From a virus: DNA of 44,119 bases. The position numbers and the translations under genes were made by a program. Numbering within the stretch: the first letter of the stretch is position 1; every line of letters starts with the position of its first letter. Below the pieces are notes generated by a model that worked only from the letters and a program-made list of their open reading frames with translations, searched no databases and was not told the origin of the DNA. The stretch lies in the IMG/VR virus record IMGVR_UViG_3300037507_002302, positions 1 through 44,119 of that record; one strand, 5' to 3'. Shown piece after piece: positions 18,783-40,242 of this stretch.

Positions 18783-21700
18783 TCAGCGGTTGGGCTGCGG
18801 GAACGGGAAGTCCAGATACGTGCGAGCCATGCGCAGGTAGATGTTGTTGTTGTACGGGAGCGCCTTGAACAGATTCTCGCGTTCGCGTGCGGTGACGGGC
18901 TTGCCGGACAGGATCTTGCGCATGGTGGCCCAGTTGCCCGGGTCCACCCAGCGCGAGGTGAACTCGGCGGCTGGTCCCAGGAGTCCGACGGCGGCGCGAT
19001 AGCGGTTGTCGTAGGTGCGGCGGTTGACGTTCTGGGTGAGAGGCGAGCCCAAGAGCGTGCCAGGTCCGGCGCCCACCGAATCGAGCCAGCCGAACGGGCG
19101 GCTGAGCCAGCCCAACATGCCGGAGTTTTCGACCGCAGCGTACATCATGCCGACGGGGTTGGTCTCCCACTGTTCGGCGGTCTTCTCCAGCGAGTTGCGC
19201 CCGCTGATCTCGTCGCGGACGGCCTGCGTGAGTGCGCCGAAGGCGATCATCATGCCCGCGTGGGTGATGAACTTGTCCCACGGCATCTGGGCGAGGCGGC
19301 GGAGCTTCTGGTCTGAGAACGCCCACGAGAAGCGGTTGAGGAACGTGACCACGAAGCGACCGGCCCAGCCTGCTTTGCCAAGGGCGAGCCGGGGTCCGTT
19401 GCCGACGCGAGAGGTGATGATGTTCTCGGCGGTGGTGATCTTGGTGAGGTTGGCGGTGGTCTGTGCGGCCAGCTTGCGGCCTTGCGGGGTCGCCTTCCAT
19501 CCATCGAACCCGGGCAGCACGGGGTCTTTGCCGATGCGGCTCAAGAACTGGTCGTAGGTGTAGACGGCGTTGATGCGCTTGCCGGCGTGCTTGCCCATGT
19601 GCAGGGTGCCGTTGTTGTAGGTGTAGGTCAGGATCTGCTGCGCGCGGGCGTTGGTCAGTCCGTAGCTGTTCCAGCGAGCGCGCTCGTAGGTGTTCATGGT
19701 CTTGGTGGCCGTGCCGGCGGCGATGTCGCGGGCAGCCTCCAAGAACACCTGGACCTGGACGACCTGATCGAACCTGCGGGCGAAGTGCGTGAACAGGTTG
19801 AAGCCGGAGATCTTGGCGCCGACGCGGGGCAGGGCGTCAGCGGTGGCGGCCACGCCGGTGGACACTGAGCGAACCAGTCCGGGGTTGGACGTGAGCGCGA
19901 AGCTGGGGCCGAAGGCGTCCATGCCGAACCGCTGGAGATTGACGTTGGTGTCTTGGGCGGCGACACCGAGCGCCCACAGGTCGGCGTTCGATGAGGCGCG
20001 CAGTCCCTTGATAGTGTTGACAAGCACTTTGAGCATCCTGGGCCGAGTGATCGCCAGCATGGTGGTGTTGGTCACGTCGTTGATGATGGCGATGATGCCC
20101 GAGTTGAACAGGCCGGACAGGGCGAACGGCTGGAGCGCGCGGTCGGTCAGCCACGGGAAGAACTCGCCACCGACGGGCGACGACGGGTCGCGGCCTTCGA
20201 TAAGGTCGAGGGGGAACACCACGTCGGTGCGGATGTTCTGGATCTGGTTGTTGTAGAGGTTGCTGACTTCTTCCGCGTATTTCGTGTAGTCAGCGCCCAT
20301 TGCCGGCACGCTGGTCGGCGAGTCTGCGAACCGCTCGGTGGAGAGGGTCAGGTCTCGGAGCGATTCCAGAAGCTCGATGGACCACAGGGTCGCGTCCTTG
20401 GCGTTCTTGACGGGCGTGCCATCTTTGAGCGTGCGGTACTTCCAGTCGGAGTACGCGACGGCCATGTGCGAGGCCACGCGCCCGCTGAGGATGCGGTTGT
20501 AGCGATGCGCGAGTCCGGTCACGTCATCGACCATGAACTCCATGAGAAGCCCACGGGGCACGCGCAGCTTGCGGAGCCGTTCGGGGTCGGCGGCGGAACG
20601 GAACGGCGCTTCGAGGATGTCGGCGGTGCCGATGCGCTCGGCCTCGGTGGTCAGGTTTTTGTAGACGCTCTGGGCCACGCTGCGATAGAACGAGCCGCGC
20701 ATGTCGGTGTAAATGATCCGCACGTCCGGCGGAAGGTCCATCATCCGCATGGCTTCTACGGCCTTGACGAACTCGGGATTGATCTTGTCGCCGATCTTGG
20801 GATTGGGCAGATTCTTGCCTGTGAGACGGCGGTACGCAGAGTTGAGCGGAGCACTGAACGACGGCGGCTGCTGACCCATGAGCGTGGGCTGGCCGGCGTT
20901 GGCGATGGCCTGCTGGTCCTTCTCGAACAAGGCCTCCGCCTTGATTTCGTTCTCGCGGATGTCAGCCAGAAGCGCCGGGTTGACCAGCTCGGCGCCGGGC
21001 GGCAAACGCTCAGCGGCCCCGGGGACCTGGTTCATGCTCTCGGCCTGCTCGAACGATTCGATCATGGTCTCGATGAAGCGCTTCTCGTTGCGCTGCACCT
21101 TGTCCACGTCGAACATTGCGGGCAGGTACCACTCGCGGCTGCTGATGGTCCCGGGCTCGATCATGCCCGAGTCTTCCATGTACTGAGCCATTTCCTTGAA
21201 CATCTTGCGGTAGGGCTCTGCAAAGTCCTTGAGGATCGGCGGGAAGTTGGGCAGGTTCTGAGGCAGCTCAAAGCCCGCCTCGATGTCCTCGGAGATCCGG
21301 TACAGGTCGAACGCCTGCTTGGCGAGCTTCTGCTTGGTGATCCCGAACCAGTCTCCGACCTTGTTGAGCGCCCAGTTGTTGGTGATGCCGTCGGGCATGG
21401 CTTCGCCCGCGGCGATGCGCTTGGGGATGCTGTGGACGACCTGCTCGGCTTCCCAGTCAGCCTTCTGGATGAGCCCTTGCAGAATCGAGCGGTAGTTTTC
21501 GACTGACAGGTTGGTCTCGAATGTGCCGGGCGCTGCCGCCGATCCACGCTGGATGTCGGTGGTGCCGCCGAACACAAGGCGGGACAGGTCGCCCCAGAGG
21601 CTTGCCATGAGCGCCTTGATCTGGTCGGGCTTGCCGGTGAGCACGGCGCGGTTGGAGTTGCGCCCCTGAACACTGGTGACGCCCAAGACACGATTGGCCT

Positions 21701-24353
21701 GCGCCGCCAGCTTGTTGAGCGCCTGAGAGAGCGGGCTGCTCGGGTTGATCTGCTCGGGCAGGGCAGTCAGTGCGTTGGCGAGAGCCTTGTTGTTGAGCGC
21801 CGACAGGGCGGTGTAGGTGTTGGTGAACAGGACCTGCTGCGGGTGCTTGGTCGCGTGCAGCGTGTGCCCGGCCTGAGCGAACCGCTCTTGAAGGTCCAGA
21901 AGCAGCTTGTGGTTGGCGTCGCCGGGTCGGTGCAGAACGGCCACGGTCTGGCTGGCCTGCGGAACGTCTCGGCGGTTGCGGAGCACCGAGCCCGTGCGGC
22001 GGGTCTTGACCGAGGTGGCGGGGTACTGCTGGTCGAGCTTCATCAGCTCGGCGCGGCTCTCGTACCACGCGACGGCAAGGGGCTTGAGGTCTCGCGCCGC
22101 GGGCGCAGAGAAGGCCGGGTCCTTGATCGACGCGGCGCCCATTGCCATGCGGAAGTCGTCTCCCAGGTCCTCGTCGAAGCTCTTGGGCAAGCCCGTGGGC
22201 GACCGATAGGGCGCGGGCTCGGAGCGCGCCAGGTCGGCACGGTTGGCAGCGTCGCGGGCGCGGATGTCGTCGATCTCGATGCCGTACTGCCGCGCAAGGT
22301 CTCGCAGCTCGGCGGGCTCCAAAGTGCCGTCGCCCCACGCGACAAGGGCCTCCGTCAGTCGCGGGTCGCCTTCTGCTTCCAGCATCTCGGCGGTGTTCTT
22401 GATGGCGTCACGCTCGCCGATGGTGATGTCCGCGTTGTCGCCGTCCGCAGCGCCCTTGGCCGCGTACATCCGGCTGATGCTGTCTTGCAGCTCGCCGATG
22501 ATCTCGCCATCGCCCAGCCTGATGGAGTCTTTGTCGGCGACGATCTCTCGCACCGTCCACGCGATCGGCTTCCATGGCTCGCCAGCCATGCCGGTCTTTT
22601 CTTCGACGACAGCCATGTCGTCAGTCCAAACGAGCCGGTAGTCCTGTCCGGCAATCTTGAAGGTGGTGCCGTCCGGGAGCGTAGTAGCGTCGTAGGCCAG
22701 CACCTTGCCCTTGAACTTGTTCTTTCCGCGCACGCCTTCAATCAGCCTGGCGTACAACGGCGCGATGGCATCGACTTCGCCGCGAACAAAAGTCTCTTTC
22801 GCAATGTCGGCGATGGCGTCGAGCGTCTGCTGAATGACCCGCTTCCACTCCTTCGGATTGAGCCCGCCGCCGGAGTAGCCCCTGTTGGTGTACGGGTTTT
22901 TCACCCCAACCTTGGTGGCGTTGAGCAGCGAGTTGGTGCGCTGCTCAAGCTTGACGGCCAGGTCAAAGGCTTCATCGCCGAACGCGGCAACGAAGTCCTC
23001 GAAGGTGTTGCGACCCCGGGTCGAGTCCGTGAGTGTGGGCACAATCCCCGTGCCTTCTAGGCGGCGCCGAAGCTCCGGCATGTTCTTTTCGGTCGCAGAA
23101 AAGACGTAGGTGAGCGCTTCGTCGGCGCCGGCAGGGCGAACCCCCGATCCGTCGTCTTCCACGCTCTTGACAATGCCGTCTAGCTGCAGGTAAATCGCGT
23201 CGGCCTCGTATGACGCGGCGTTCTTGACCTGAAAAAGCAGATCGGTCATCTTGAGCGAGATGGGGCGTGTCGGCGGAGAAACCTCGGTCGCCCTAGGCCT
23301 GTCAACGTTGACACCCTCGGCGGTGAGCAGGGGGTCAGAGGCGAACTGGTCAGGGAACTCGGCGGCAAGCTGCTCGATCGTCGGAAGAACGGGCTCGTCG
23401 GGCACGGCTGCCGGAGCTTCGGTTTGTGCAACCTGCACAGGCTCGGGAGTGGGGGTCGGCTCGCTGCTGACCATCCAGTCTTCGGGACGGCCCTGCGGCG
23501 CTGCGGTCGGAGCAACCCGCGCGGGCTCGGCGGCCAGAATCGTCATGCGCTGCCGCTGCTCGGCAAGACGACGATCAAGGAACAGCTCCTGATCGGTCAG
23601 TCGCTGAGCTTCGTTGGCGAGACGTTCAGGGGGCAGGATTCCGACGGGCCTGCCGTCCGCGCTGATGAGCGAGCGGGGCAGAAGCTGCGCGGCGCGCTCG
23701 ACGCCAATCAGGGCGCCAGCAACGCCGCCACCGAACAGAGCACCGATGCCGGCGTTGGTGAGATCGTCTTGGAAGCCGCGGGGGTCCGCCGCGGGCATGA
23801 ACACGCCTTGGGCCTTTTGAAAGAGCACGTTGCCAACCGCGGCCTCGGCTGCGTTGGAGCCGATGCGGGCGGCCACTGAGCCGGTGGCACCGAAGAAGCC
23901 CGGGATCAGGAAGTTCTCACCCTGCGCGATTCCGGCGGCCAACTGGGTGTACCACCGCGCGTTGTCGATGGTGCGGGAACGCTCGTTGTGCTGGCGAGCC
24001 CGGAACAACTCGTAGGTGAACTCGCGCTCGTTGCGGGCAAAGTCGAACTGGCCCGAGTCGGCCAGCTCGATGACCTCGGGGTCGTTGAACAACCACGGGG
24101 TGCGCTTGATGTAGTCCACGGGGTTGAAGCTGGGATCGGGCTGGCCGAACCAGTCGGAAAGCATCGACCGGCCGGCCAGGCTCTGCACGACCGTGGAGCC
24201 GATGCTGTTGAGAAACGACGCCTCCCACGCCTGAACGAACCCCGTGGGCTCCGTGCCGGGCTCCGCGTCCGGCGCGGGCTGCTGCTGCAAGGCAGAGCGA
24301 GTCCGCCGGTACTCGGCAAGCCAGTCGGCGTTGGACAGTCCAAGCGTGCTCAT
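18783..24353 (-). CDS. Giant internal virion/DNA-ejection protein, gp16-like (1856 aa)
   Basis: It sits where T7 gene 16 would be, after gp14- and gp15-like genes. At 1856 aa it is longer than T7 gp16 (about 1318). The N-terminus (FNPVDYIKRTPWLFNDPEVI, FDFARNEREFTYELF) resembles internal-core proteins of T7-like phages. I see no lytic transglycosylase ES/GLMQ motif in the N-terminal region, where T7 gp16 carries it. Gly/Ala-rich segments (GIGALFGGGVAGALIG) could insert in membranes. Such proteins are ejected first and form a channel for the DNA. A palindrome copy lies at 23300. Confidence 0.85.
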   Translation of the reverse strand: MSTLGLSNADWLAEYRRTRSALQQQPAPDAEPGTEPTGFVQAWEASFLNSIGSTVVQSLAGRSMLSDWFGQPDPSFNPVDYIKRTPWLFNDPEVIELADSGQFDFARNEREFTYELFRARQHNERSRTIDNARWYTQLAAGIAQGENFLIPGFFGATGSVAARIGSNAAEAAVGNVLFQKAQGVFMPAADPRGFQDDLTNAGIGALFGGGVAGALIGVERAAQLLPRSLISADGRPVGILPPERLANEAQRLTDQELFLDRRLAEQRQRMTILAAEPARVAPTAAPQGRPEDWMVSSEPTPTPEPVQVAQTEAPAAVPDEPVLPTIEQLAAEFPDQFASDPLLTAEGVNVDRPRATEVSPPTRPISLKMTDLLFQVKNAASYEADAIYLQLDGIVKSVEDDGSGVRPAGADEALTYVFSATEKNMPELRRRLEGTGIVPTLTDSTRGRNTFEDFVAAFGDEAFDLAVKLEQRTNSLLNATKVGVKNPYTNRGYSGGGLNPKEWKRVIQQTLDAIADIAKETFVRGEVDAIAPLYARLIEGVRGKNKFKGKVLAYDATTLPDGTTFKIAGQDYRLVWTDDMAVVEEKTGMAGEPWKPIAWTVREIVADKDSIRLGDGEIIGELQDSISRMYAAKGAADGDNADITIGERDAIKNTAEMLEAEGDPRLTEALVAWGDGTLEPAELRDLARQYGIEIDDIRARDAANRADLARSEPAPYRSPTGLPKSFDEDLGDDFRMAMGAASIKDPAFSAPAARDLKPLAVAWYESRAELMKLDQQYPATSVKTRRTGSVLRNRRDVPQASQTVAVLHRPGDANHKLLLDLQERFAQAGHTLHATKHPQQVLFTNTYTALSALNNKALANALTALPEQINPSSPLSQALNKLAAQANRVLGVTSVQGRNSNRAVLTGKPDQIKALMASLWGDLSRLVFGGTTDIQRGSAAAPGTFETNLSVENYRSILQGLIQKADWEAEQVVHSIPKRIAAGEAMPDGITNNWALNKVGDWFGITKQKLAKQAFDLYRISEDIEAGFELPQNLPNFPPILKDFAEPYRKMFKEMAQYMEDSGMIEPGTISSREWYLPAMFDVDKVQRNEKRFIETMIESFEQAESMNQVPGAAERLPPGAELVNPALLADIRENEIKAEALFEKDQQAIANAGQPTLMGQQPPSFSAPLNSAYRRLTGKNLPNPKIGDKINPEFVKAVEAMRMMDLPPDVRIIYTDMRGSFYRSVAQSVYKNLTTEAERIGTADILEAPFRSAADPERLRKLRVPRGLLMEFMVDDVTGLAHRYNRILSGRVASHMAVAYSDWKYRTLKDGTPVKNAKDATLWSIELLESLRDLTLSTERFADSPTSVPAMGADYTKYAEEVSNLYNNQIQNIRTDVVFPLDLIEGRDPSSPVGGEFFPWLTDRALQPFALSGLFNSGIIAIINDVTNTTMLAITRPRMLKVLVNTIKGLRASSNADLWALGVAAQDTNVNLQRFGMDAFGPSFALTSNPGLVRSVSTGVAATADALPRVGAKISGFNLFTHFARRFDQVVQVQVFLEAARDIAAGTATKTMNTYERARWNSYGLTNARAQQILTYTYNNGTLHMGKHAGKRINAVYTYDQFLSRIGKDPVLPGFDGWKATPQGRKLAAQTTANLTKITTAENIITSRVGNGPRLALGKAGWAGRFVVTFLNRFSWAFSDQKLRRLAQMPWDKFITHAGMMIAFGALTQAVRDEISGRNSLEKTAEQWETNPVGMMYAAVENSGMLGWLSRPFGWLDSVGAGPGTLLGSPLTQNVNRRTYDNRYRAAVGLLGPAAEFTSRWVDPGNWATMRKILSGKPVTARERENLFKALPYNNNIYLRMARTYLDFPFPQPNR
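23300..23313. promoter_or_regulatory. 14-bp palindrome site 3 (TGTCAACGTTGACA)
   Basis: Exact copy inside the ejection-protein gene, in a Pro/Glu-rich linker (EGVNVDRP) where amino-acid constraint looks low. It is 6.8 kb from site 2 and 11 kb from site 4. Confidence 0.8.
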
Positions 24354-26622: not shown

Positions 26623-27174
26623 TCAGCCCCTCCTGCCCGAGAACGGTGACGGCGGGTTCTGGATGGTCGGCGGCGACCACGGGTTGAAGTAGTTGCCGAT
26701 CTGCATACCCGCCTGCCCGATCTGGATGCCGGTTGAGAAGCCCTGCAAGCCCCCGGTAAACGCGGCAAGAAGCGGGTTGGTGTACCTGCCGGACAGTTCG
26801 AGATTGGCTGCCGTCGCGCCCGACTGGATGCGGCGCTGGGTGTTGGCCTCGTTGCGGTTGATGACGTCCACGTTCCGCAGCGTGTCAAGGTCGATCTGGC
26901 GGGTCAGCGCGTCGTAGGAGCCCGAGTTGAGCGCGCCTCCGTCGGAGGCCACCACGCGAAGCCGGGCCTCCAGTGCTCGCGCCTCACGGATGCGCTTCTC
27001 GCGTTCGAGCGCGGCCTGGTCCCGCACCTGCTCCATTTGGATGCCTGCGGCCCGGTTCTGCTCGTCCTGAGCCTGGCGGATGGCCCGGTTCTGTGCCCGC
27101 GCCGCGGACGCGGACGTGGCGACGCCAAGGCCGGCGCCGCCGATGGCAAGAACAGGCAAGAGTCCGGCTCCCAT
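26623..27174 (-). CDS. Internal virion protein, gp14-like (183 aa)
   Basis: Begins with a hydrophobic Gly/Ala segment (LLPVLAIGGAGLGVATSASA), followed by a long Gln/Arg/Glu-rich helix and a Gly-rich C-terminal part (FTGGLQGFSTGIQIGQAGMQ). This is the usual composition of T7 gp14 relatives (T7 gp14 is 196 aa), which form the outer-membrane part of the ejection channel. Gene order supports the call. Confidence 0.85.
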   Translation of the reverse strand: MGAGLLPVLAIGGAGLGVATSASAARAQNRAIRQAQDEQNRAAGIQMEQVRDQAALEREKRIREARALEARLRVVASDGGALNSGSYDALTRQIDLDTLRNVDVINRNEANTQRRIQSGATAANLELSGRYTNPLLAAFTGGLQGFSTGIQIGQAGMQIGNYFNPWSPPTIQNPPSPFSGRRG

Positions 27175-27185: not shown

Positions 27186-27755
27186 CTAGCCGATGCGCGG
27201 CGAGTACGTGAACTCGTGCTCGACGCGGGTGATGATAAACGGTCGGTGATCGACGCTGTTGATGGTTTGCCGCAGTTGGTCCACATTTCCACCAAAGTGG
27301 GCAATGAGCGATCCACGGCTGCTCAACACGTCGGACTGGAAGGTCTTGGTTCGCAGCGGCCGTCCGGTTTGGGCGCAGCGAAGCTGGAAGTGGCCCGAGC
27401 GTTCGTAGGTCGCCACCGCCTTGATCTGGCTGGTCGGGCTGTACGGGTCAGCGTTGCCGTTCTGGTCCCGGTAGTAGGGCCTGGTCAGCTCGACGGCAGC
27501 GGAGAACGCCCGACCGATCATGACAAGACCCGCGGAGTAGTTGCCGGTGGCCGTCACGGTGTTGTCGGTGGCGCTCAGAACGGGGATGGCGGTGCCCGAG
27601 CTTGAGCCAAACGCGACGCCCAGCACGATCCGGTTGAGCCCGGCTGCCGGCGCCGGAATGGTCCACGTCGTGACGTTGGTGGCGGGGTTGTAGACCCCTG
27701 CGGCCTCCACGCGCCGGTCAAGGTGGATGGTAAATGGGAAGTCAGCGGATGCCAT
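27186..27755 (-). CDS. Separate C-terminal segment of tail tubular protein B (189 aa)
   Basis: The start is the ATG at 27755 with AAGGAG upstream; longer frames cross the methyltransferase out of frame. PFTIHLDRRVEAAGVYNPAT, then TTWTIPAPAAG, then VELTRPYYRD, and an end reading RPFIITRVEHEFTYSPRI match the layout of the C-terminal third of T7 gp12-type tail nozzle proteins (hydrophobic LDxR strand, TTxTLP, and the closing W/F-E-F-x-Y-x-x-R segment). The large upstream tubular B ends before this part. It therefore looks like a split gene with two enzymes in between. Alternatively it is an unrelated tail protein in the gp13 position. Confidence 0.6.
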   Translation of the reverse strand: MASADFPFTIHLDRRVEAAGVYNPATNVTTWTIPAPAAGLNRIVLGVAFGSSSGTAIPVLSATDNTVTATGNYSAGLVMIGRAFSAAVELTRPYYRDQNGNADPYSPTSQIKAVATYERSGHFQLRCAQTGRPLRTKTFQSDVLSSRGSLIAHFGGNVDQLRQTINSVDHRPFIITRVEHEFTYSPRIG

Positions 27756-28356
27756 GGTGCTCCTTGACGTGGACCCACCACATCTTTGCGTCGGGGTTGG
27801 TGTAGTCTCCGAGCCAGTCTGATCCGAAGTGGTCGATGACGGCGGCCCGCACCTCAAACTGGTCGATGTCGTGCCCGCAAATGATGCCGCCCGGCTTGGT
27901 GAACGCGCGAGCGGTGAAGATGTCTGCGGCGACGTGCAGGTAGTCGTGGGCTCCGTCAATGAAGGTCAGGTCGGCGTGCCCGCCCATGATGCCAAGGGCT
28001 TCGCGCAAGGCGTTCCGAACGCATCGGATGTTGTGGCTGGGCTTGTCGACCACGATCACGCGGTCACGGAACGGCTGCATGTTCCGGTGAAACGCTGCGC
28101 TGACGTCGCCAGCGTCAGGCTGAACGCCTGCGCCGTCGGTCCACGTGCCCGAGAAGTCGTCCACGCACACGATTCTCGCGTTTCCGGCGGCCAGCATGGC
28201 CGTGGTCGAGCGACCGTGGTAGCTGCCGATTTCGATGATGCGCTTCGCGCCGGTCTGGACAACGCCGCGGGCAAGGATGCGAAGCTCGGTGTTGGTCATG
28301 AGCCCTTGGACGGCCTCGGCGGCTGCCACGGCGCGATCAACTGCGGCCTCAAGCAC
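27742..28356 (-). CDS. Class I SAM-dependent methyltransferase (204 aa)
   Basis: Motif I is clear (RIIEIGSYHGRSTTAML, about 39-55), followed by VCVDDFSGTW and ADLTFIDGAHDYLHVAADI, the pattern of the Methyltransf_24/TylF-like group that acts on sugars or small molecules. The start is a GTG at 28356 with GGGAGG six bases upstream, overlapping the glycosyltransferase stop by eight bases; the stop overlaps the next gene. With the glycosyltransferase it would modify a glycan. Substrate unknown. Confidence 0.8.
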   Translation of the reverse strand: MLEAAVDRAVAAAEAVQGLMTNTELRILARGVVQTGAKRIIEIGSYHGRSTTAMLAAGNARIVCVDDFSGTWTDGAGVQPDAGDVSAAFHRNMQPFRDRVIVVDKPSHNIRCVRNALREALGIMGGHADLTFIDGAHDYLHVAADIFTARAFTKPGGIICGHDIDQFEVRAAVIDHFGSDWLGDYTNPDAKMWWVHVKEHHGIR

Positions 28357-29263
28357 GGGCAACCTCCCTGACGGCCAGATTGGGCAGCGTGTCCATCGCG
28401 TTGACGCACTGGCTGAGCACTTCGCCAGGATCGAGCATGAGCAAGGCGCGACACTGGTAGTCGCACGCCTTGCGGTATCCACGCTCGCCAGCGAAGTGGC
28501 ATCCGACGCACGAAACTTGATCGGCGGTCACGCGAAGCTCGCGGGCGTTCTCGGCGTGCGTAAAGATGTTGCTGGTCGGACCCATGATCCCGAGCGTCGG
28601 TGTGCCGATGGTGGCGGCCAGGTGCGTCGGCCCGGAGTCGTTGCCGATTACGAGGTCGGCGTGCTGCATCCAGGCGGCAATCTGACGCCAAGAATGGCCC
28701 CAGTAGGCAAACGGGAACCCAAGGCCGCCGTCACCGCGGCCCGACGGATAGAACGCGGCTGTGGACACGCCTTCGGCCTCAAGGCCCCACGCGAGATCGA
28801 GCCAGTAGGCCATGGGCCACGTCCGCACGGAGTATTCGCTGAACGGGAACAGAAGCGCAAGCTTGCGGCGGCCGGCACGACGATCCTGCGCGGCGCGCTG
28901 GGCCCACTCTGATTCGGGCTTGGGCGCAAGGAACGGCGGGCGGGCCGGTGCGGGCGGCTGGTTGTCCACGCGAGGCCACCAGACATCAACGCGCCGGCTC
29001 TTGCCGCGGTCGATGCGGAGCTCGATCTGTTGGTACGCGGGGAACGCCGCGCCCAAACGGATGCCGCGCTCATGCTCGGGGGCGGTGTTCTGCTCGGAGC
29101 GTGGATCAACGACCTGGCCGAGCATCTGGAGAACCTGACGGTGGTTGTGGTTGTTGGCGTAGTAGTCCACTTTGACGCCGCGGAATCTGAGCCCTTCGGC
29201 GATCCACGTGGTCGCCACGGCATCACCGATGCCGCCGGTGTCAGCCCAGAATCGAATGTGCAT
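28349..29263 (-). CDS. GT9-family glycosyltransferase, heptosyltransferase-like (304 aa)
   Basis: The N-terminus MHIRFWADTGGIGDAVATTW is the GT-B acceptor-side glycine-rich segment. ADLVIGNDSGPTHLAATIGT (about 202-221) is the conserved donor-binding motif of ADP-heptose:LPS heptosyltransferases (GNDSGPTH), followed by LGIMGPT. A Cys-rich C-terminal stretch (SCVGCHF and YQCR) is also usual in GT9. In this position, inside the tail module, it may alter the host surface glycans or a virion protein. Confidence 0.85.
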   Translation of the reverse strand: MHIRFWADTGGIGDAVATTWIAEGLRFRGVKVDYYANNHNHRQVLQMLGQVVDPRSEQNTAPEHERGIRLGAAFPAYQQIELRIDRGKSRRVDVWWPRVDNQPPAPARPPFLAPKPESEWAQRAAQDRRAGRRKLALLFPFSEYSVRTWPMAYWLDLAWGLEAEGVSTAAFYPSGRGDGGLGFPFAYWGHSWRQIAAWMQHADLVIGNDSGPTHLAATIGTPTLGIMGPTSNIFTHAENARELRVTADQVSCVGCHFAGERGYRKACDYQCRALLMLDPGEVLSQCVNAMDTLPNLAVREVARA

Positions 29264-29266
29264 GGC

Positions 29267-31669
29267 CTAGACGGGGTCGCCCGTTCCGCCGGTGCCCGAG
29301 CCGGTTCCTGCGCCGCCCGAGCCGGAGCCCCCCGCGGGCGAGCATTGCGGTGTGATGGTGAGTGTGCCCGAGAACTCGTAGCTGGGTGTGCCGTCGAACC
29401 TGTTGCGGACCTTGTAGCCCAGCGAAGCCAGCGTGCTGGTCACGATGTTGGTCACGTCGGCGTACTCAGCGACGAGGGGCTGAACTTGCGGCAGGCGGCC
29501 CCAGGCGGTCTCGAACAAGCCAAAGAAGCCGTGAGTTTCAAAGTCCATCGGGCACAGAACGCGGACATTGACGGCTTCGTTGACGGAGCCAGAGCCACCA
29601 ACCAGCACCGTGCGCGTGCGCGTGTACCCCTTGAGTTCTCCGATTTTGCCGCTGACGCTGTGCGAGTAGCGAACGTGCTGAACCAGAACAGGCACGCCAA
29701 AGTCGTCGGTGTCCCACTGCTTGAGGTCTTCCGTGGCCGTAAGCGTGAAACTCCCTTTGTTGACCGACAGGCTGGTGTTGCAGCATGACGCGATCGGCGC
29801 GGAAGCCACGCCAGTGATGAAGTCGGCGTCGAACGGATCGACCACAGCCACCACCGTGGAGCATTGATCGGTACACGCCACACCCGATCCGCTGCCACTC
29901 CCAGAGCCGGAGCCTGCGCCCGAGCCCGAGCCGGAACCCGATCCGCTGCCCGAGCCAGAACCAGAACCTCCACCGCTGCCGCCGCCTCCACCCGTCCCTG
30001 TGCCGGTTCCCGTGCCAGTGCCTGTTCCCGCGCCTCCGCTCGCTCCAGAGTCGCCGCCGTTGGTGCCAGGAAACGGCGTCGGCGTCGGGCTTGGGATGAT
30101 GTCCGTGATGGCGTCAACCGTCAGCGAGCCCATGGCGAACCGCTCGATCACCCACTGGCCCAAGCAGGTGTCTTCGACGAGCATGTAGATGTCGCTCTTG
30201 ATGGTCGCCAAGTCGGTGACGCGGTAGCACGGCGAGAACGTGAACGTCGTCCACGCCGATTGGTCCTTCCTGATGCTGGTCCAGAACGCCTGATAAACGT
30301 ACAGGACCGTCGGCGCCGACGTCGGAAGCACGAACACGGTGTTGTCGTTGCTCACCGAAGCGATGCGACGGATGCCCGTGGGAACCAGCCGCTCGACGTG
30401 CGCGGTCACGTCTGACGCAGCGTTGGACGCCTGGGCTTCATCGAACAAATACTCGAAGATGGTGGCATTGCTCTTGTTCAACGCCGGGAAGTAGATGAAG
30501 TTGCCCATTTGGCACGGGCGCACGCCGCTGATGGTCTGGTACGAAGTTGTGGGCGTGATGGCTGCGGTGCTTGGAGTCAACGCCTCGGGCGCGTTTAGCT
30601 CGAACTGCCGCCCGGTCTGGGTGAACACGATGAGCGCCTTGCGGAATGGGATCACGTGGTCAACCAGTGACACTTCTTCGGCAGAAAGCGTCCGCTCGAT
30701 CGGGTCGGAATCCACAAGGTCTTCGGCGTCGTCGATCCAGAAGTTGAACAGGTCGTCAGCCTGCGAGAACGCGAGCTGTTCGCCGCCGGCAAGCACAAGC
30801 CGGTCGCGGTGGAACGCGATGTCCTTGATGGGCGTCGCGCTTGACCACAGACGGATGGGCGGGTTGGTGTTTTGGTCGCCGCTGGTCCGATCGTTCCACG
30901 TGATCGGCGAGACTGTAAACACGGCGGGGCTGGCGCCGACGCCGATGGCGGTGCGGCGCATCTGGATGGGCAGCGTGCTCTTGTCGGGGCGCGCGCCGAC
31001 CTGGCCGGACGGGGCAACGCGAGTGAACTTGCCCGCGGCGGTCTTGAACCAGAACCCCTTCTTGGCAACGGCGGAGTCCGCGTTGGTCTGGTAGTACTGC
31101 CCGATCGGATCAGTGGCCGCGACCATGGCCTCGTAGTTGGCGTAGGCCAGCGACACCACGTAGGTTGGAGCGTCGAGGATTGCGGGCGCGACCTTGGTGT
31201 TGACGATGATCGTGTAGTCGGCGATCGTCAGCAGTCGTAGATCGTCAGCACCAGCGCCGTTGGCGGAGAGATACGCCTGCGCAGTCGCGTCGATGTTGAC
31301 CGTGGCCTCGGGGCCGTTCGGCCGAAGGTCCAGAACGCGGAGACAGTTCGAGCCGTACACCACCAAATACTGCTCGTTCTGGTCGCGGTAGATCGAGTGC
31401 AGGCGGAAGCTCCCACCACGGCTCAACCCGGAAGTGAGCGATGCGCTGGCGCCTGAGCCAGACCCAGAACCAGCGGAGAACGTGGGGTCTACAGCCGCAC
31501 CAAGACTTGCGACAAACCATGTTCCCGCCCTCTTGCTCATGCCGTCCTTGACCGAGAACGTCGTGTTCACGGCAGAGACGACTTGGTTGGTGAACCGTAG
31601 GTGGTCAGGCTGCTGGCTGATCCCGCCGAACAGGCTCGAAGCGACCTGCTTTAGTTGGTCCCGGGCCAT
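29267..31669 (-). CDS. Tail tubular protein B, N-terminal part, with Gly/Ser linker and extra domain (800 aa)
   Basis: The N-terminus (SSLFGGISQQPDHLRFTNQV, then NTTFSVKDGMSKRAGT) is the hallmark of T7 gp12-type nozzle proteins. The gp12-like part runs to about residue 525 (VIERFAMGSLTVDAI). A PT-rich and then Gly/Ser/Thr-repeat linker (about 527-600) leads to a Cys-containing domain with no gp12 counterpart (about 600-780), and a second Gly/Ser tail ends the protein. An additional GSGSGSG stretch lies near residue 70. The usual C-terminal part appears to be encoded separately at 27186-27755. The extra domain might bind the host surface; that is inference. Confidence 0.85.
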   Translation of the reverse strand: MARDQLKQVASSLFGGISQQPDHLRFTNQVVSAVNTTFSVKDGMSKRAGTWFVASLGAAVDPTFSAGSGSGSGASASLTSGLSRGGSFRLHSIYRDQNEQYLVVYGSNCLRVLDLRPNGPEATVNIDATAQAYLSANGAGADDLRLLTIADYTIIVNTKVAPAILDAPTYVVSLAYANYEAMVAATDPIGQYYQTNADSAVAKKGFWFKTAAGKFTRVAPSGQVGARPDKSTLPIQMRRTAIGVGASPAVFTVSPITWNDRTSGDQNTNPPIRLWSSATPIKDIAFHRDRLVLAGGEQLAFSQADDLFNFWIDDAEDLVDSDPIERTLSAEEVSLVDHVIPFRKALIVFTQTGRQFELNAPEALTPSTAAITPTTSYQTISGVRPCQMGNFIYFPALNKSNATIFEYLFDEAQASNAASDVTAHVERLVPTGIRRIASVSNDNTVFVLPTSAPTVLYVYQAFWTSIRKDQSAWTTFTFSPCYRVTDLATIKSDIYMLVEDTCLGQWVIERFAMGSLTVDAITDIIPSPTPTPFPGTNGGDSGASGGAGTGTGTGTGTGTGGGGGSGGGSGSGSGSGSGSGSGSGAGSGSGSGSGSGVACTDQCSTVVAVVDPFDADFITGVASAPIASCCNTSLSVNKGSFTLTATEDLKQWDTDDFGVPVLVQHVRYSHSVSGKIGELKGYTRTRTVLVGGSGSVNEAVNVRVLCPMDFETHGFFGLFETAWGRLPQVQPLVAEYADVTNIVTSTLASLGYKVRNRFDGTPSYEFSGTLTITPQCSPAGGSGSGGAGTGSGTGGTGDPV
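29880..30060 (-). repeat. Gly/Ser/Thr-coding low-complexity repeat
   Basis: GC-rich simple repeats encode runs of GT, GS and GA dipeptides in the tail tubular protein. Such tracts mutate by slippage, so linker length could vary between isolates. They separate the gp12-like body from the extra C-terminal domain. Confidence 0.85.
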
Positions 31670-32259
31670 GATCCCACCTGGGTGCTGTCGTCCATTCGAT
31701 CGCGCCCGCCGAGCATCTGCGCGGCAGCGTTGGTTGCCAGCACGTTGGACGGCCCGGCCTCGTTGTCTTCGCGCTCGGCCTGCACGCGAGCCGCTGAAAG
31801 GCGCTGCGACAGAAGTCCTTCATCGACGATGCCACGGCGCTTGAAGCGCTGGAACGTGGCCGTGGCGTGTGCCACAACCAGATGGCTCAGCCCGTTCGGA
31901 AGACTCTCGAACGGAAGCAGCACGATGGTCTTGAGCGTCACGTCCGCCGTGAACGTGGCTGTGTCGTTGTCGAAGTCGTAGAGCGTTGAGCCCTGCGGCG
32001 CCAGCTTGCGGTGGGTGTCGGTGTGCGCCGGGATTACGCGGATCACGTTGGCCGGGACGGTGATGGTGCCGGAGACGGGCGAGTAGACGCGCTCTGGTAT
32101 GGTGTTGCACAACCAGCCCTCAGACTGGACCGTGAGGTTGTCTTCGTCCAGGATCTGCTCGGCGTCGCCGGCGTCGGTTGGCTGGCCGGTTTCCAGAGTG
32201 GACGGCGCAGACTCGCCGATGGAACGGAGCATTCGGCGGATGGCTTCGAGCTTGGTCAC
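31651..32259 (-). CDS. Tail tubular protein A, gp11-like (202 aa)
   Basis: The opening MTKLEAIRRMLRSIGESAPS, followed by an acidic helix (AEQILDEDNLTVQSEGWLCN) and PANVIRVIPAHTD, is the standard T7 gp11 (adaptor) pattern. Length matches gp11 (196 aa). It forms the ring between portal and nozzle. The stop overlaps the tubular-B start region, so the pair is translated together. Confidence 0.9.
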   Translation of the reverse strand: MTKLEAIRRMLRSIGESAPSTLETGQPTDAGDAEQILDEDNLTVQSEGWLCNTIPERVYSPVSGTITVPANVIRVIPAHTDTHRKLAPQGSTLYDFDNDTATFTADVTLKTIVLLPFESLPNGLSHLVVAHATATFQRFKRRGIVDEGLLSQRLSAARVQAEREDNEAGPSNVLATNAAAQMLGGRDRMDDSTQVGSWPGTN

Positions 32260-33443
32260 AGGGGGCCTCCACGGCGCAGTTGAATGGGACCAGTGCGGGG
32301 CGCGTGGGCCCCGGCGGGAAGCTGATACAGATACCCGGCGTTGATGCTGCGAAGGCGGAAGTCGGCGATGGCCGCGTTGATGAAATCGTCTTCGCCTGCT
32401 GCCTGCTCGTGCAAGCTGGGCCAGTCGCCCAAGCCCGTTGAAGCCGTGCCTCCGCGGACGCGGTTGCCTGCCAGCAAGCAGTTGAGTCGTCCGCTGGGGT
32501 TGGCGACCGCCGTGGTCACGTCAACGAAGTAGTTGTTGCAGACCACGCCGCCTTCGTCGAGACTGGCGTTCTGGAAGCGCACGCCCTCGACAAAGCCTCG
32601 CACGGTGTTGAACAGGAAGTCGATTGGCCCTGAGTTGGTCCCGCGCAGCTCGCACGCGCCGATCGCCGAGCCGCCGCCGATGAACTGGTTGTACGCCACC
32701 AGGTCCGCGCCGTCGCTGCTGTTGGGCGTAAACACGCCACGGGAAAGCAGCGTGGTCAGGCGGCAGCCGAGCACGCGGGTGTTGCCGCTCTGGCTCTGCA
32801 CCGCGCCGACGTTGCTTGTGACCGCGTCCGCGCTCGACGCGTCGCACCGAAGGTCGCAGTTGATGAGTCCCGAGGCGTTGCCGAGACGAACGGCCGAGGC
32901 GTTGGTCTGGAGGCCGACCACGGTGTTCCGGACATCGCAGTTGACCATGTACGCGGCGTTGCTCGTAAGGTTTACGAGGTTGTTGGCGACTGCGCCCTCG
33001 ATCCTCACGCAGTCCACCACGAGATTGGCGACTTGGAGATCCAGATTGTTCCCGCCGAACTGCAACACCGGGTAGCGCGAGGTGTCCAGGGGCCCGAGGC
33101 CCCCGAGCGTGCGGCCCAGGTACGCATCGCTCACGGCGTTGGCGCCCGTCGGCGGCGTCTGCCAGTAGCCGCGCAGGATCACCGGAGATCCGTTCTGGGC
33201 CGTGATCGTGCGGAGCGTCCGGAAGGCGTTGATCGTGTAGGTGCCGGCCTTGATGAGCACCAGGACCCCGTCGGTGGAGCTGGGGTTCAGGCCCGCCCCG
33301 CCCAGCCCCGCGCCCGCCGCGCCCGTGGTTGCAAAGAGCACCTGATTGATCGACCACGCGCCGGTAGCGCCGCCAACCGTGGGGGTCGTGCCGTCGCCAA
33401 GACCGTCGGCGTTTTGGTCGACATATCGAACGAGAAGGGCCAT
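32256..33443 (-). CDS. Right-handed beta-helix tail spike/fibre protein (395 aa)
   Basis: After a short N-terminal segment (MALLVRYVDQNADGLGDGTT), the protein consists of repeating short strands with Asn and small residues (LVNLTSNAAYMVNCDVRNTV; RLGNASGLINCDLRC; VGAVQSQSGNTRVLGCRL), typical of pectate-lyase-like beta-helices. VLIKAGTYTI is the usual first rung. It probably recognises or degrades a host glycan. A catalytic triad cannot be assigned. Its position beside tail tubular A is unusual for T7-like fibres, which come after gp16. Confidence 0.75.
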   Translation of the reverse strand: MALLVRYVDQNADGLGDGTTPTVGGATGAWSINQVLFATTGAAGAGLGGAGLNPSSTDGVLVLIKAGTYTINAFRTLRTITAQNGSPVILRGYWQTPPTGANAVSDAYLGRTLGGLGPLDTSRYPVLQFGGNNLDLQVANLVVDCVRIEGAVANNLVNLTSNAAYMVNCDVRNTVVGLQTNASAVRLGNASGLINCDLRCDASSADAVTSNVGAVQSQSGNTRVLGCRLTTLLSRGVFTPNSSDGADLVAYNQFIGGGSAIGACELRGTNSGPIDFLFNTVRGFVEGVRFQNASLDEGGVVCNNYFVDVTTAVANPSGRLNCLLAGNRVRGGTASTGLGDWPSLHEQAAGEDDFINAAIADFRLRSINAGYLYQLPAGAHAPRTGPIQLRRGGPL

Positions 33444-34343: not shown

Positions 34344-34850
34344 TTAGACGATCTTGGATTCGAGCACTGCCCCGGTGACGCCAGTGCCCGCCAAGGCGGT
34401 CTCGATGCCGACGATGATCTCGTTGCAGCCGAGGCAGTCCACGGCGTGGAGGGTGTGATCCACGGTGGTCACGTCGTTGGTGCCGTCCGTGGCGTCCGCA
34501 GCGTCGGCGGCGATGGTGATGCTGAGGTTGCCGGCGCGGTTGCGGAGTCGTTCCCACGCGCCCGAGCCCGTCCGGCCGAACACCGCGAACGTGGGATTGG
34601 TGACGCTGAACGGAACAGTGGCCCCCGCCGGGTACCGCAGCCGGAACAGGATTGTGGTGCCGATGTTTTCGGACCGGCTCATGATGGTGGACCGCCCCGT
34701 GTTGAGCTGGGCCGCGGGGTTGGTCACGGTCGCCGCGTCCTGGGTGGTCGGCAACGAATGGATCGGCTGCCAGCTCGACGTGACGGAGCCGGCCTGAACA
34801 GGCGGAGCCTTGGTTTGCTCCAAGAACGTCACACGCGGGAAGCTGGACAT
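34344..34850 (-). CDS. Probable virion protein (168 aa)
   Basis: The ATG at 34850 follows AGGAG. The protein is Ser/Thr-rich with beta-type composition (ENIGTTILFRLRYPAGATVP; FAVFGRTGSGAWERLRN). It contains a Cys pair (VDCLGCNEII). Its place two genes after the capsid, separated by a hairpin, suggests a minor structural or decoration protein. No family recognised. Confidence 0.6.
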   Translation of the reverse strand: MSSFPRVTFLEQTKAPPVQAGSVTSSWQPIHSLPTTQDAATVTNPAAQLNTGRSTIMSRSENIGTTILFRLRYPAGATVPFSVTNPTFAVFGRTGSGAWERLRNRAGNLSITIAADAADATDGTNDVTTVDHTLHAVDCLGCNEIIVGIETALAGTGVTGAVLESKIV

Positions 34851-34875
34851 GGGTGAACTCCTGAATGAACGGAAA

Positions 34876-34906
34876 CCCCTGCCGGGGCTTTCGCAACCGG
34901 CAGGGG
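34876..34906 (-). terminator. Strong hairpin after the capsid genes
   Basis: Inverted repeat CCCCTGCCGG (34876-34885) with CCGGCAGGGG (34897-34906) and an 11-nt loop, 17 bp past the stop of the 198-aa gene. A uridine tract is missing, so it may attenuate transcription, mark an RNA-processing site, or protect capsid mRNA. Confidence 0.5.
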
Positions 34907-34922
34907 TGGATGGGAGACCGAA

Positions 34923-35519
34923 TCAGGACGCGAGACGGCAGTACGCGATCTCGATGGTGCCCGTGAACCGGAGCGGCGTGGTGGCCGTGATCTGAGCGTC
35001 AGCGACGCCGACGTTCAGAACGAGGCTGTTGGTGCCGCCAACCGCGCCGGCGGTCGCTGCCACGCCCGTGGCGTTGCTGGTGACCGTCGAGGCCGCCAGC
35101 GTGGCCGAGGTGGACGCCACGAGGTTGGCTTCTGTGCTGTCCAGCGTGTCGTTGCCGGTCACTGCCGCCGTGCCCAGCGAGTGCTTGACGATCGCCGTCG
35201 CGCCGATGCCGGCGCCCTGCGAGGTCAGCGTGAACTTCTCGACCGTCGGCAGAAGGTGCAGCACGCCGTCGGGCAGCGAGCCCAGCGTCAGCGAGCCGAT
35301 GCCGCCGTTGGCGCCGCCGGAGTCGGTCACGGTGATGTCGACGTTCGTGAGCTGGAGGACCAGCCGGTTGTACGTGCCATCACGAGTCTGAGACACGATG
35401 GACACGCCACGCTCCGCCGCCGCCGTGGGCGAGCCACTGGCGACGGTGAAGACGTTGGCGCGCGCGAACGAACTGTTGCGGTCCACAATCGAGATCGTGG
35501 ACGGATTGAGCTGAGTCAT
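34923..35519 (-). CDS. Probable head decoration or fibre protein (198 aa)
   Basis: The start is the ATG at 35519 with AAGGAG upstream; longer frames read the capsid gene out of frame. It begins MTQLNPSTISIVDRNSSFAR, is rich in Thr/Ser/Ala/Val with alternating strands (LVLQLTNVDITVTDSGGANG; SATLAASTVTSNATGVAATA), and ends IEIAYCRLAS. It follows the major capsid gene with a 26-bp gap. The composition and position suit a capsid surface protein; not proven. Confidence 0.65.
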   Translation of the reverse strand: MTQLNPSTISIVDRNSSFARANVFTVASGSPTAAAERGVSIVSQTRDGTYNRLVLQLTNVDITVTDSGGANGGIGSLTLGSLPDGVLHLLPTVEKFTLTSQGAGIGATAIVKHSLGTAAVTGNDTLDSTEANLVASTSATLAASTVTSNATGVAATAGAVGGTNSLVLNVGVADAQITATTPLRFTGTIEIAYCRLAS

Positions 35520-35545
35520 TCTTGTGCTCCTTGTGGTGTGTGCGA

Positions 35546-36631
35546 TTAGGAGACGGTGGTGACGTCGATGACGCCGAGCAGCCACGGGTGCATGACGCCG
35601 AAGCCGGCCTGCATGTGGGCGTCGAAGTACCACGCCTTTTGGCGCTTGATGTACTCCATTTCCGTGGTGAGGTTCTTGTAGATGGCCGCACCCAGCGGGT
35701 ACATGCCCGGCTCGCCCTGCGCCACGGCGATCACCGCGGGCTGGCCGTTCGCGCCGCCCGGGGTGTAGTCGCCCTGGTACTTCGCCAGCGCGAGGTTGGC
35801 GTTGGTAGAGGTGTCCGGGAACGGGCCGCCCTGAGTCTCGCCGTTGACGAATCCGAGGACGCGGAACCCTTCGACCATCATGATGGTGCGGGAGTTGAGG
35901 TCGTTGCCACTCTGGTAGTCGCTGCTGAACAGCGTCGAGCCGCCGGGCGTCGTGGTGGCGGACGGCGTGCCGTAGACGAACCCGTTCTCGCGGGTCAGGA
36001 CCGACCGCAGAGACGAGTGCAGGAAGATGCCGCGGCCTTCCGCGGGCACGTTGTCGTAGTCCATCAGCTGAGCCAGCTCGGCGAGGTTGTCGATGAGCCG
36101 GCGAGCGCCGATCGGGGTGGCGGGGAACGCCAGCGCCATGCTGGAATAGCCGCCAACGCGGACGCGGTTGCCGCCGTTGTGGATGTTGATGCCGTTCTTG
36201 TTCACCGCCGCGGCGCGAGCGCCGTTGACCGCGATGCGGAACAGGCGACGGTCGATGTAGCGGATGGTGCGGGCGCCGAGCTTCGCGCCGGTGTTGGAGG
36301 TCCACGTCGGATCGGCGATGTTGGTCTGATCCTCGCGCAGCTTGCGGTGCGCGACGATCAGGTCGTCCGCGGTGATCGTGCCCTCGTCGAACGCAAACGG
36401 CTGGCCTTCGAGGGTCGCCGTGCCGGGCGCGAACGGCTCGGGCTCAACCGCGTCGCCTTCCATGATGAACTGGAACGACTTGCCCATGCTGTGCCGGACG
36501 TTCATCTTCTGGATGAACGGCAGGTTGTAGAGCACGGGACGCTGACGGAACGCCTCAACCACGGACCCGGTGTAGACCTTGTTCGCCATCGCCAGGTCGT
36601 CGGCGCCAGTACCAAGATACGCAATGGACAT
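35546..36631 (-). CDS. Major capsid protein, T7 gp10-like (361 aa)
   Basis: The N-terminal arm (VYTGSVVEAFRQRPVLYNLP, then SMGKSFQFIMEGDA) matches the N-terminal pattern of gp10-type HK97-fold capsids (F-G-V-x-x-A-F, then G-K-S/T-x-x-F). The body includes ITADDLIVAHRKLREDQTNI and the C-terminal MHPWLLGVIDV. Length is similar to T7 gp10A (345 aa). It is preceded by AAGGAG, and a strong terminator lies upstream of its leader. It follows the scaffold gene, as in T7. Confidence 0.9.
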   Translation of the reverse strand: MSIAYLGTGADDLAMANKVYTGSVVEAFRQRPVLYNLPFIQKMNVRHSMGKSFQFIMEGDAVEPEPFAPGTATLEGQPFAFDEGTITADDLIVAHRKLREDQTNIADPTWTSNTGAKLGARTIRYIDRRLFRIAVNGARAAAVNKNGINIHNGGNRVRVGGYSSMALAFPATPIGARRLIDNLAELAQLMDYDNVPAEGRGIFLHSSLRSVLTRENGFVYGTPSATTTPGGSTLFSSDYQSGNDLNSRTIMMVEGFRVLGFVNGETQGGPFPDTSTNANLALAKYQGDYTPGGANGQPAVIAVAQGEPGMYPLGAAIYKNLTTEMEYIKRQKAWYFDAHMQAGFGVMHPWLLGVIDVTTVS

Positions 36632-36772
36632 GATGCTTCTCCTTGGAAAGACAGGCTGCTCCCGTCTCTGCCAAGGTGTCTGTCACGTCCTGCGGGCCGG
36701 TGGTCCGGGTATCCGAAGGCGATCAAGGCTTGTCAGACGTAGACACGCTGCGCGAACACCGCGCAGCAAAAA
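36632..36772 (-). promoter_or_regulatory. Capsid-gene leader
   Basis: This 140-bp leader lies between the terminator and the capsid ATG. It contains a second hairpin (GCTGCGC/GCGCAGC, 36747-36767) directly after the terminator T-run, and the AAGGAG ribosome-binding site. A terminator just before the most strongly expressed gene suggests that a separate promoter, perhaps for the phage polymerase, lies here. I could not recognise its sequence. Confidence 0.4.
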
Positions 36773-36802
36773 GACCCCGCGCGCGTTTCCGCGCACAGGG
36801 TC
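36768..36802 (-). terminator. Rho-independent terminator between scaffold and capsid genes
   Basis: On the minus strand a 13-bp stem (GACCCTGTGCGCG with CGCGCGCGGGGTC, two G-U pairs) is closed by a GAAA tetraloop and followed by TTTTTGC. This is the clearest intrinsic terminator in the window, 23 bp past the stop of the 163-aa gene. Confidence 0.88.
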
Positions 36803-36825
36803 CGGAGTGGGGGGCGAGGCTTGAA

Positions 36826-37317
36826 TCAGTCGTCGCTGCCGCCGCTGATCGGAAGCGATTCCGGGTCGGGCTTCTCGATGGGCACGTTGCCGCGGCGTCG
36901 ATCACGCCTCACGTTGATCGACGGGGCCTCGAACTGGGGCTCGGTCGGCTCGGAAGGCTGGACGCCCGTGGCGCCAGCGATCTGAGCCTTAAGCTGCGCG
37001 ATCTCCGCGTCGCGCTTGCGGATTTCTTCGTTGGCGTGGTCGGTCGCCTGCTGAGCCTGAGTCTTGGGCTTGGGCGCGTTGGGAATGAGCTCGATGAGTT
37101 TGCCGATGGCCTCGGCTTCGCTCGTGCCGTAGGCGACCGCGTAGCGGATGCCCGTGGTGAGGTCGATGGCCTCGGCCTGCACGGCGTTGAAAATGCCCTC
37201 GGGAAGCTGCTTGTCGGCGATCAGGCGCTCAATGCCGGTGCGAACGCCGGCAACGCGGTACGTGGAGTTGTACGTCTCAAGAACGCCGATCTGGTACGGG
37301 CTGGGTTGGTATCCCAT
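36826..37317 (-). CDS. Hypothetical protein between scaffold and capsid (163 aa)
   Basis: The ATG at 37317 follows AAGGAACAACC. The N-terminal 85 residues (YQIGVLETYNSTYRVAGVRT and on) may form a small fold. A coiled coil follows (HANEEIRKRDAEIAQLKAQI), then a disordered acidic tail (ESLPISGGSDD). No family recognised. It probably belongs to head assembly because of its position. Confidence 0.65.
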   Translation of the reverse strand: MGYQPSPYQIGVLETYNSTYRVAGVRTGIERLIADKQLPEGIFNAVQAEAIDLTTGIRYAVAYGTSEAEAIGKLIELIPNAPKPKTQAQQATDHANEEIRKRDAEIAQLKAQIAGATGVQPSEPTEPQFEAPSINVRRDRRRGNVPIEKPDPESLPISGGSDD

Positions 37318-37326
37318 GGTTGTTCC

Positions 37327-38172
37327 TTAGCTGAACGTCGCCTCGTTGGCGGCCTTGATGGGGTCGAATCGAGAAGCCGCCTGACGAAGTGCGGCCAGAG
37401 CTGTGGGGTCGTTGCCGGCGCGGCGCGCCAGGTTGGCAATCTCCGAAGCAGAGACGGGCGCGGACGGAACAAACCCGGCGCCAGTCAGAAGCGGCTTGCC
37501 GCCAGCGGTGCCGGTGGCCTGCGCGTACATGCCCAGAAGCTCCTGGAACCCCTGTCGGTACGTCTGCACGTTGCCCAGCTTGGCGTTGAGTTCCGAGCGT
37601 TGCGCCGGAGTCAGAGCCCCAGAAGCCCATTGCATCACCACGTCGTACTGCTGCTGGCCGCCAGCGGCAGCAACCACGGACGCCAGAGCGGTCTGGGTGG
37701 TCTGTGCCTCAACATGGAGATGGTAGTTGACCATCTCAGGCGTGATGCCCGGGTTGACCTTCTGGATGGCCTCGTACTTCTCGGGGCTCAGCTTGCCGTT
37801 CTCGACAAACTCAGTCAGAAGCGCGGCGCCGTCAAGGCCAGCGGCCTTCACGATCTCCGCGGGCGTGGCGGCTGCGGGGGGCTTGGGAGCCGCGGGATCG
37901 GGAATCGTCGGCGGCGTGCTCGCCGTCGGCTTGGCCGGTTCCGCGGGCTTCGCGGTTAGCCTGCCCAACATGGATTCCAGACGCCTGTACCCAGCCTCGG
38001 CGGCCTTGGCGTCGGCGAACTTGGGTGGCTCGCCGGGCAGTTCGAGCTTGCCGTGCAACTCCGTGTAGCCCTGCATGAGCGCTTCGGGCGTGGCGTACTT
38101 GCCGGCCAGAAGCGACGTCGACGGCTCGGGCGGAGGTGTGGCGGTCGGTTCGGGGATGGTCGGGGTGGTCAT
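37327..38172 (-). CDS. Scaffolding protein, gp9-like (281 aa)
   Basis: The LLAGKYATPEALMQGYTELH opening (about 21-40), a Pro/Ala-rich linker and an acidic helical C-terminal half (YDVVMQWASGALTPAQRSEL) match T7-like scaffold proteins (about 300 aa). It lies between portal and capsid as in T7, and directs prohead assembly before leaving the particle. Confidence 0.85.
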   Translation of the reverse strand: MTTPTIPEPTATPPPEPSTSLLAGKYATPEALMQGYTELHGKLELPGEPPKFADAKAAEAGYRRLESMLGRLTAKPAEPAKPTASTPPTIPDPAAPKPPAAATPAEIVKAAGLDGAALLTEFVENGKLSPEKYEAIQKVNPGITPEMVNYHLHVEAQTTQTALASVVAAAGGQQQYDVVMQWASGALTPAQRSELNAKLGNVQTYRQGFQELLGMYAQATGTAGGKPLLTGAGFVPSAPVSASEIANLARRAGNDPTALAALRQAASRFDPIKAANEATFS

Positions 38173-38182
38173 GGAACGCTAC

Positions 38183-39808: not shown

Positions 39809-40014
39809 CCGGGGATGCTCAATCCGGTCGAGTTGCGGTTGCTGTCGGGCGTGCTCGGCGGCTCGATGAGCAGCGAGTACCTGCCTCGGCGGTTCTTGCG
39901 AAGGTCGCGGCGCTGCCGTGCCAGCTCAGAGGAGTTGGTCGTGTCCTCCGAAGGCGGCGGGGGAGGAGGCGGGGGGGGATCAGGAGATCCGCCCCCGAAG
40001 ATTCCGCCATCCAT
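39805..40014 (-). CDS. Small Gly/Pro-rich protein before portal (69 aa)
   Basis: Begins MDGGIFGGGSPD followed by nine prolines, then a basic segment (LARQRRDLRKNRRGRYSLLI) ending in SNRNSTGLSIPG. Short proteins with a GGxFGG-poly-Pro start and a final glycine-rich motif occur just before portals in many podoviruses and are thought to be minor tail or head-assembly proteins. The start codon overlaps nothing upstream and the stop overlaps the portal ATG. Confidence 0.7.
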   Translation of the reverse strand: MDGGIFGGGSPDPPPPPPPPPSEDTTNSSELARQRRDLRKNRRGRYSLLIEPPSTPDSNRNSTGLSIPG

Positions 40015-40026
40015 GTGTGCCTCCGT

Positions 40027-40242
40027 TCACTGCGGCTTGCGGGCCGCGTAAGCCATGTGCTCAACCAACTCGCGCACGCCAACCAGCTTGGCGTAGGCGA
40101 GTCGCCCGGCCTCGGTGGAGACTTCCTCAACGCTCGGCATCCTCTGCGGATACAGCGCGTTGAGCAGGTCCACCACGCCCTCAAGCGTCGCCTGCGGGAT
40201 CTCGTTCCACGCGCGTTCGTGAGTCGAACTCTCCGATGTCAT
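40027..40242 (-). CDS. Small hypothetical protein (71 aa)
   Basis: The ATG at 40242 follows AGGAG; the protein overlaps the C-terminal codons of the papain-like gene by 62 bp in another frame. It is acidic and helical (NEIPQATLEGVVDLLNALYP; EVSTEAGRLAYAKLVGVREL). No domain recognised. A start further inside would remove the overlap but lacks a ribosome-binding site. Confidence 0.6.
   Translation of the reverse strand: MTSESSTHERAWNEIPQATLEGVVDLLNALYPQRMPSVEEVSTEAGRLAYAKLVGVRELVEHMAYAARKPQ

Follow-up and report, generated by a model that had tools for sequence, protein, structure and literature searches.

Can the nozzle of a T7-like phage tail be made from two polypeptides whose genes do not even touch? 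Few parts of T7-like tails are as conserved as the nozzle, tail tubular protein B or gp12. A locus that appears to encode it in two pieces asks how such a gene came to be opened and whether its products still meet in the virion. The locus lies in virus record IMGVR_UViG_3300037507_002302, all 44,119 bases of which were analyzed (the window). The record comes from an uncultured T7-like phage whose genes include those for a T7-type RNA polymerase, a portal, a gp11-like adaptor, a gp14-like protein, a terminase, and an integrase. The late genes lie on the minus strand and encode, in order, the adaptor, an 800-aa protein, a GT9-family glycosyltransferase, a methyltransferase, a 189-aa protein, the gp14-like protein, and two large proteins whose positions match those of gp15 and gp16. 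The original prediction, made from the letters of 27186-31669, was that the nozzle is split there with two sugar-type enzymes between the halves, and both the coordinates and the content of that region proved to be as claimed. The features, in order of transcription, are as follows.

31651..32259, minus strand: tail tubular protein A/adaptor gp11 (PF17212, 2e-26), the upstream neighbor
29267..31669, minus strand: nozzle N-chain gene, 800 aa (PF25675, 6e-93; phrog_457, 7e-97)
30113..31669, minus strand: nozzle part of the N-chain, residues 1-519 (from profile, alignment, and model)
31409..31489, minus strand: Gly/Ser-rich insert, residues 61-87, separating the N-terminal strands from the propeller; relatives lack it
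29876..30112, minus strand: Pro/Thr- and then Gly/Ser-rich linker, residues 520-598 (pLDDT of ~30)
29342..29875, minus strand: orphan Cys-containing domain, residues 599-776 (no relative; low-confidence model)
29270..29341, minus strand: second Gly/Ser-rich linker, residues 777-800, the C terminus of the N-chain (from composition)
28349..29263, minus strand: GT9-family glycosyltransferase, 304 aa (PF01075, 2e-18)
27742..28356, minus strand: class I SAM methyltransferase (Methyltransf_24; PF13578, 1e-16)
27186..27755, minus strand: nozzle C-chain gene, 189 aa, fiber dock and C-terminal platform (PF25675, 5e-11; phrog_457, 6e-18)
26623..27174, minus strand: T7 gp14-like internal virion protein (PF24072, 6e-15), downstream neighbor of the C-chain

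Several other features of the window describe the phage that carries this locus. There is no gp13 gene between the C-chain and gp14 genes; in relatives, the gene after the nozzle usually encodes a gp13-like or an acetyltransferase-like protein. A gp17-type fiber gene was not found between the protein in the gp16 position and the terminase genes (18459-24353, minus strand). A 395-aa open reading frame (ORF) at 32256-33443, without a family match and beta-helix-like by eye, could be a candidate receptor-binding protein. A tyrosine integrase is encoded at 8825-9979 on the minus strand (phrog_1, 2e-48; PF00589), and its presence alongside a T7-type RNA polymerase makes a temperate T7-like phage possible. 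The 14-nt palindrome TGTCAACGTTGACA occurs in five exact copies in the window (at 4922, 16451, 23300, 34271, and 41111), one of them inside the ORF at 4491-5411 (minus strand) for a ParB-like partition protein (phrog_1033, 5e-17). These copies could be parS-like sites of that protein; no ParA was identified.

Where does the nozzle sequence stop, and where does it resume? The match of the N-chain to PF25675 (Phage_nozzle) stops at profile position 568 and that of the C-chain begins at 588, while for phrog_457 the corresponding positions are 588 and 590. T7 gp12 itself aligns to the N-chain as far as residue 567, and a six-frame search recovered the nozzle as consecutive pieces, covering profile positions 6-57, 53-135, 303-568, and 583-747. 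The motifs LDRRV, TTWTIP, and VEHEFTYSPR, said to appear in a separate 189-aa protein, are indeed located there. The gp12 match within the 800-aa protein is likewise real, though its end, placed at about residue 525, was found at 519-524. In an alignment with compact intact nozzles, the N-chain ends ...ERFAMGSLTVDAITD exactly where the C-chain starts MASADFPFTIHLDRRV, so that no nozzle residues were lost at the cut; the same alignment leaves the C-chain short of ~11 platform residues. The nozzle domains are thus divided between two frames with two genes between them, and the N-terminal platform motif SLFGGISQQPDHLR is retained in the N-chain although its partner sits in the C-chain. The nozzle-tip domain, which is inserted in blade 3, is mostly missing, with gp12 134-316 matched by only ~86 residues. 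This reduction, at N-chain residues ~161-247, is also seen in compact relatives (L010-L025) and is a separate feature of the lineage.

Structural models were built with AlphaFold for each chain alone and compared to T7 gp12, and that of the C-chain was used in a Foldseek search of the PDB. The N-chain model is confident over residues ~20-515, with the short Gly/Ser insert at about 60-80 as the exception; its residues 6-524 superimpose on T7 gp12 6-589 with a Z score of 30.2 over 478 residues. The C-chain model (built on 66 relatives; pLDDT of 90.7, pTM of 0.80) fits end to end on T7 gp12 583-792 with a Z score of 12.1 over 179 residues and an rmsd of 3.0, and its top 14 matches in the PDB are all T7-type nozzles. 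The 189-aa protein, which might have had an unrelated fold, is therefore predicted to have that of the gp12 C terminus. As modeled, nothing of the nozzle is lost at the cut when the two proteins are combined, each has the matching gp12 fold, and the cut is located where the beta-propeller meets the fiber dock. In T7 gp12, the platform barrel is formed by three strands of the 45-residue N terminus together with the C-terminal domain (PMC6702177, Cuervo et al.). With a cut at the propeller/fiber-dock joint, the platform barrel, if built at all, needs both chains, and we infer from the models that the two would coassemble into one nozzle.

What, then, occupies the rest of the N-chain? After the N-terminal platform strands and the propeller, it continues for 281 residues past the nozzle part through a linker of Pro/Thr and then Gly/Ser, a six-cysteine domain (Cys 599, 603, 629, 630, 706, and 776), and a second Gly/Ser stretch, bearing out the claim of a Gly/Ser-rich stretch and a Cys-containing domain beyond the nozzle part. 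In the model, everything past residue 515 is disordered linker or, for the Cys domain, at best half-confident: it is partly beta, with a pLDDT of ~60 at residues 631-680. Residues 600-780 are not seen forming the gp12 C-terminal domains, as far as models whose confidence stops at ~515 can tell. No relatives of the Cys domain were found in Pfam or phages, and PDB sequences gave just chance antibody-like hits. Stretches rich in Gly, Ser, Thr, and Ala are few and short in the window's other proteins that were examined. Because linkers flank the Cys domain on both sides, the arrangement suggests that the domain first entered the junction of propeller and dock and that the gene was broken afterward, at the second linker.

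The proposal of a two-chain nozzle, with an extra domain and a cassette of two enzyme genes, is supported. Of the two origins originally offered, gene fission or insertion of a cassette, the second, as an insertion of linker-domain-linker plus two genes, fits better than simple fission, because compact intact relatives carry no residues at the junction. The reading we prefer, at a probability of roughly 0.7, is that a nozzle gene was opened at the propeller/fiber-dock junction by the linker-domain-linker and the two enzyme genes, and that the phage builds a two-chain nozzle. Insertion of these elements into a gp12-type gene would have left two structural genes within a single late operon whose translation is coupled, and in the virion their products would reunite into a six-fold, two-chain nozzle. 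The N-chain would contribute the platform strands it keeps and the C-chain the rest of the barrel, strand complementation joining the two, while the orphan domain would hang on its flexible linkers on the outside, next to the fiber dock. Most speculatively, the enzymes, made along with the virion proteins, may attach a sugar and methylate it; the target would be the virion, perhaps its Ser-rich linker, or, late in infection, the host surface.

The enzymes themselves are readily assigned to families. As originally stated, a GT9 glycosyltransferase and a SAM methyltransferase with overlapping ends lie between the halves. The former scores 67.1 bits against PF01075 (curated cut-off, 22) and carries the DSGPTH motif; against the NCBIfam equivalogs for ADP-heptose LPS heptosyltransferases, its best score of 34.4 bits falls well short of the cut-off of 170.2. 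The methyltransferase scores 62.2 bits against PF13578 (curated cut-off, 26.3), and its start is most likely the GTG at 28356 (204 aa), behind AGGGAGG, rather than 28482. Relatives of the two enzymes were absent from nozzle neighborhoods, and phage records gave weak partial matches. The genes are tightly packed: the adaptor and N-chain genes overlap by 19 nt, the GT9 ATG lies 3 nt past the N-chain stop, the two enzyme genes share 8 nt (GTGCTTGA), the methyltransferase and C-chain genes overlap by 14 nt, and an AAGGAG ribosome-binding site stands shortly 5' of the C-chain ATG. No sigma-70-like promoter or terminator-like site was found in the region, as expected for a single operon. All four genes are close to other late genes in third-position GC and in codon use; in the N-chain extension and both enzymes, the values are slightly lower (third-position GC of 0.76-0.80), which is compatible with acquired cargo and is no proof of it.

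Are the enzymes connected with the nozzle at all? They could be lysogenic-conversion genes that act on the host surface and happened to land in a tolerated spot, a reading that bears on the enzymes alone and leaves room for a two-chain nozzle. Two facts speak for it: the heptosyltransferase family is GT9, and the phage carries an integrase. Against it, the enzymes sit inside a late structural operon with no sigma-70-like promoter of their own, and expression in a lysogen is not expected from such a position. On balance, it is a plausible reading, though less likely than not. Rather unlikely, in turn, is the most elaborate version of the preferred reading, in which the domain on Ser-rich linkers and its own enzymes form a dedicated unit, glycosylated and mounted beside the dock with the two-chain nozzle. 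If it were true, a sugar-bearing domain would be made and mounted in step with the nozzle.

It might also be asked whether the C-chain is used. It could be a decaying remnant, with the N-chain forming the nozzle alone and the new domain replacing the fiber dock and platform. The C-chain has kept 16 of 39 conserved family residues against a median of 80% in relatives, fewer than in any relative surveyed, and has the short platform deletion mentioned above. The N-chain has likewise kept 96 of 168 against a median of 85%, and low conservation in both chains could reflect relaxed constraint or a divergent lineage. Yet the C-chain frame is open, its codon use is normal, its ribosome-binding site is strong, and its predicted fold is confident over the full length. 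Moreover, the platform strands of the N-chain have no other known partner, and the extra domain has no detectable sequence likeness to a platform. A remnant is therefore improbable.

How rare is the arrangement? The survey covered loci from IMG/VR and from genomes, retrieved through their similarity to the nozzle or the portal, plus five phage records. Both nozzle parts lie in one ORF at 119 other loci, and at none are they separated by other genes. The 119 include a prophage remnant of Rhizobium sp. G21 (L148), counted there since one of its frames spans the junction; its nozzle gene is broken into two overlapping frames without an insert. No relative has a comparable insert at the exact junction, and some have ~70-190 additional residues deeper in the dock. 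In 15 portal-linked records, 8 related-prophage genomes, and 754 genomes sampled from two classes, no other nozzle was found split by intervening genes. Single-protein scans of IMG/VR gave no close relatives of either half, and the C-half was not found in plasmids. A BFVD search with the C-half model returned mostly full-length nozzles and a few short entries, including phage VLC6 and the 471-aa Ralstonia BMB50. A literature search, with the terms tried, found no paper on a split T7-type nozzle.

The split region is known from one metagenomic contig. Another contig (L090), which differs by one mismatch over 9,381 bases, covers 34366-43746, with the nozzle outside it; in scans with the RNA polymerase, portal, TerL, capsid, and gp16, it was the sole near-identical contig, besides distant portals. 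With no second contig across the junctions, sequence from a foreign molecule could have been joined into an intact nozzle gene during assembly. A chimera, however, is not expected to cut exactly at a domain boundary, to place an AAGGAG-ATG start before the second half, or to produce three successive overlaps or abutments in one orientation. Third-position GC and codon use, moreover, are similar across the region, and we regard an artifact as very improbable. Least credible of all is that an intron, intein, or programmed frameshift rejoins the halves before assembly: introns and inteins commonly invade phage genes, but the window has no Rfam match at the gathering threshold, the halves differ in frame and are separated by stop codons and two complete genes, and the second half comes with a start signal of its own.

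A natural two-chain nozzle would matter in three ways. (i) It would mark a hinge that tolerates cutting and insertion. (ii) It would be a direct test of the proposed coassembly of the N- and C-terminal parts of the platform barrel. (iii) It would show a site of cargo entry inside an essential virion gene.

How does the two-chain nozzle compare with known systems? In Klebsiella phage VLC6 (L166; MT197176.1, 4366-6724), the nozzle is also annotated as two proteins, of 514 and 289 aa, the second labeled a tail spike. There, however, the ORFs share 56 nt in another frame with no gene between them, and a frameshift or sequencing error is likely, because the gene of VLC5 is single. Mycobacteriophage virions are glycosylated by phage glycosyltransferases that work with methyltransferases; there, too, phage enzymes decorate virion proteins, an activity that is putative here, but their genes do not lie inside a nozzle gene. 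Nozzles with an enlarged fiber dock (L061, L076, L056, L082, and L093) likewise have extra residues beyond the propeller, in the C-terminal part, though these follow the LDRR motif or sit within the dock, in a single gene. The compact nozzles found in uncultured phages and prophages (L014-L024 and L120; mostly 676-700 aa) share the reduced nozzle-tip region and are similar in total nozzle length, here ~519 plus 184 residues, but are encoded in one reading frame with a junction that lacks an insert. T7 gp12 (PF25675, phrog_457), finally, has the same propeller, fiber dock, and platform folds and the same position between gp11 and gp14. It is encoded by one gene, whereas here there are two and the nozzle-tip part is largely missing, and only here do a linker-Cys domain-linker and two enzyme genes stand at the cut.
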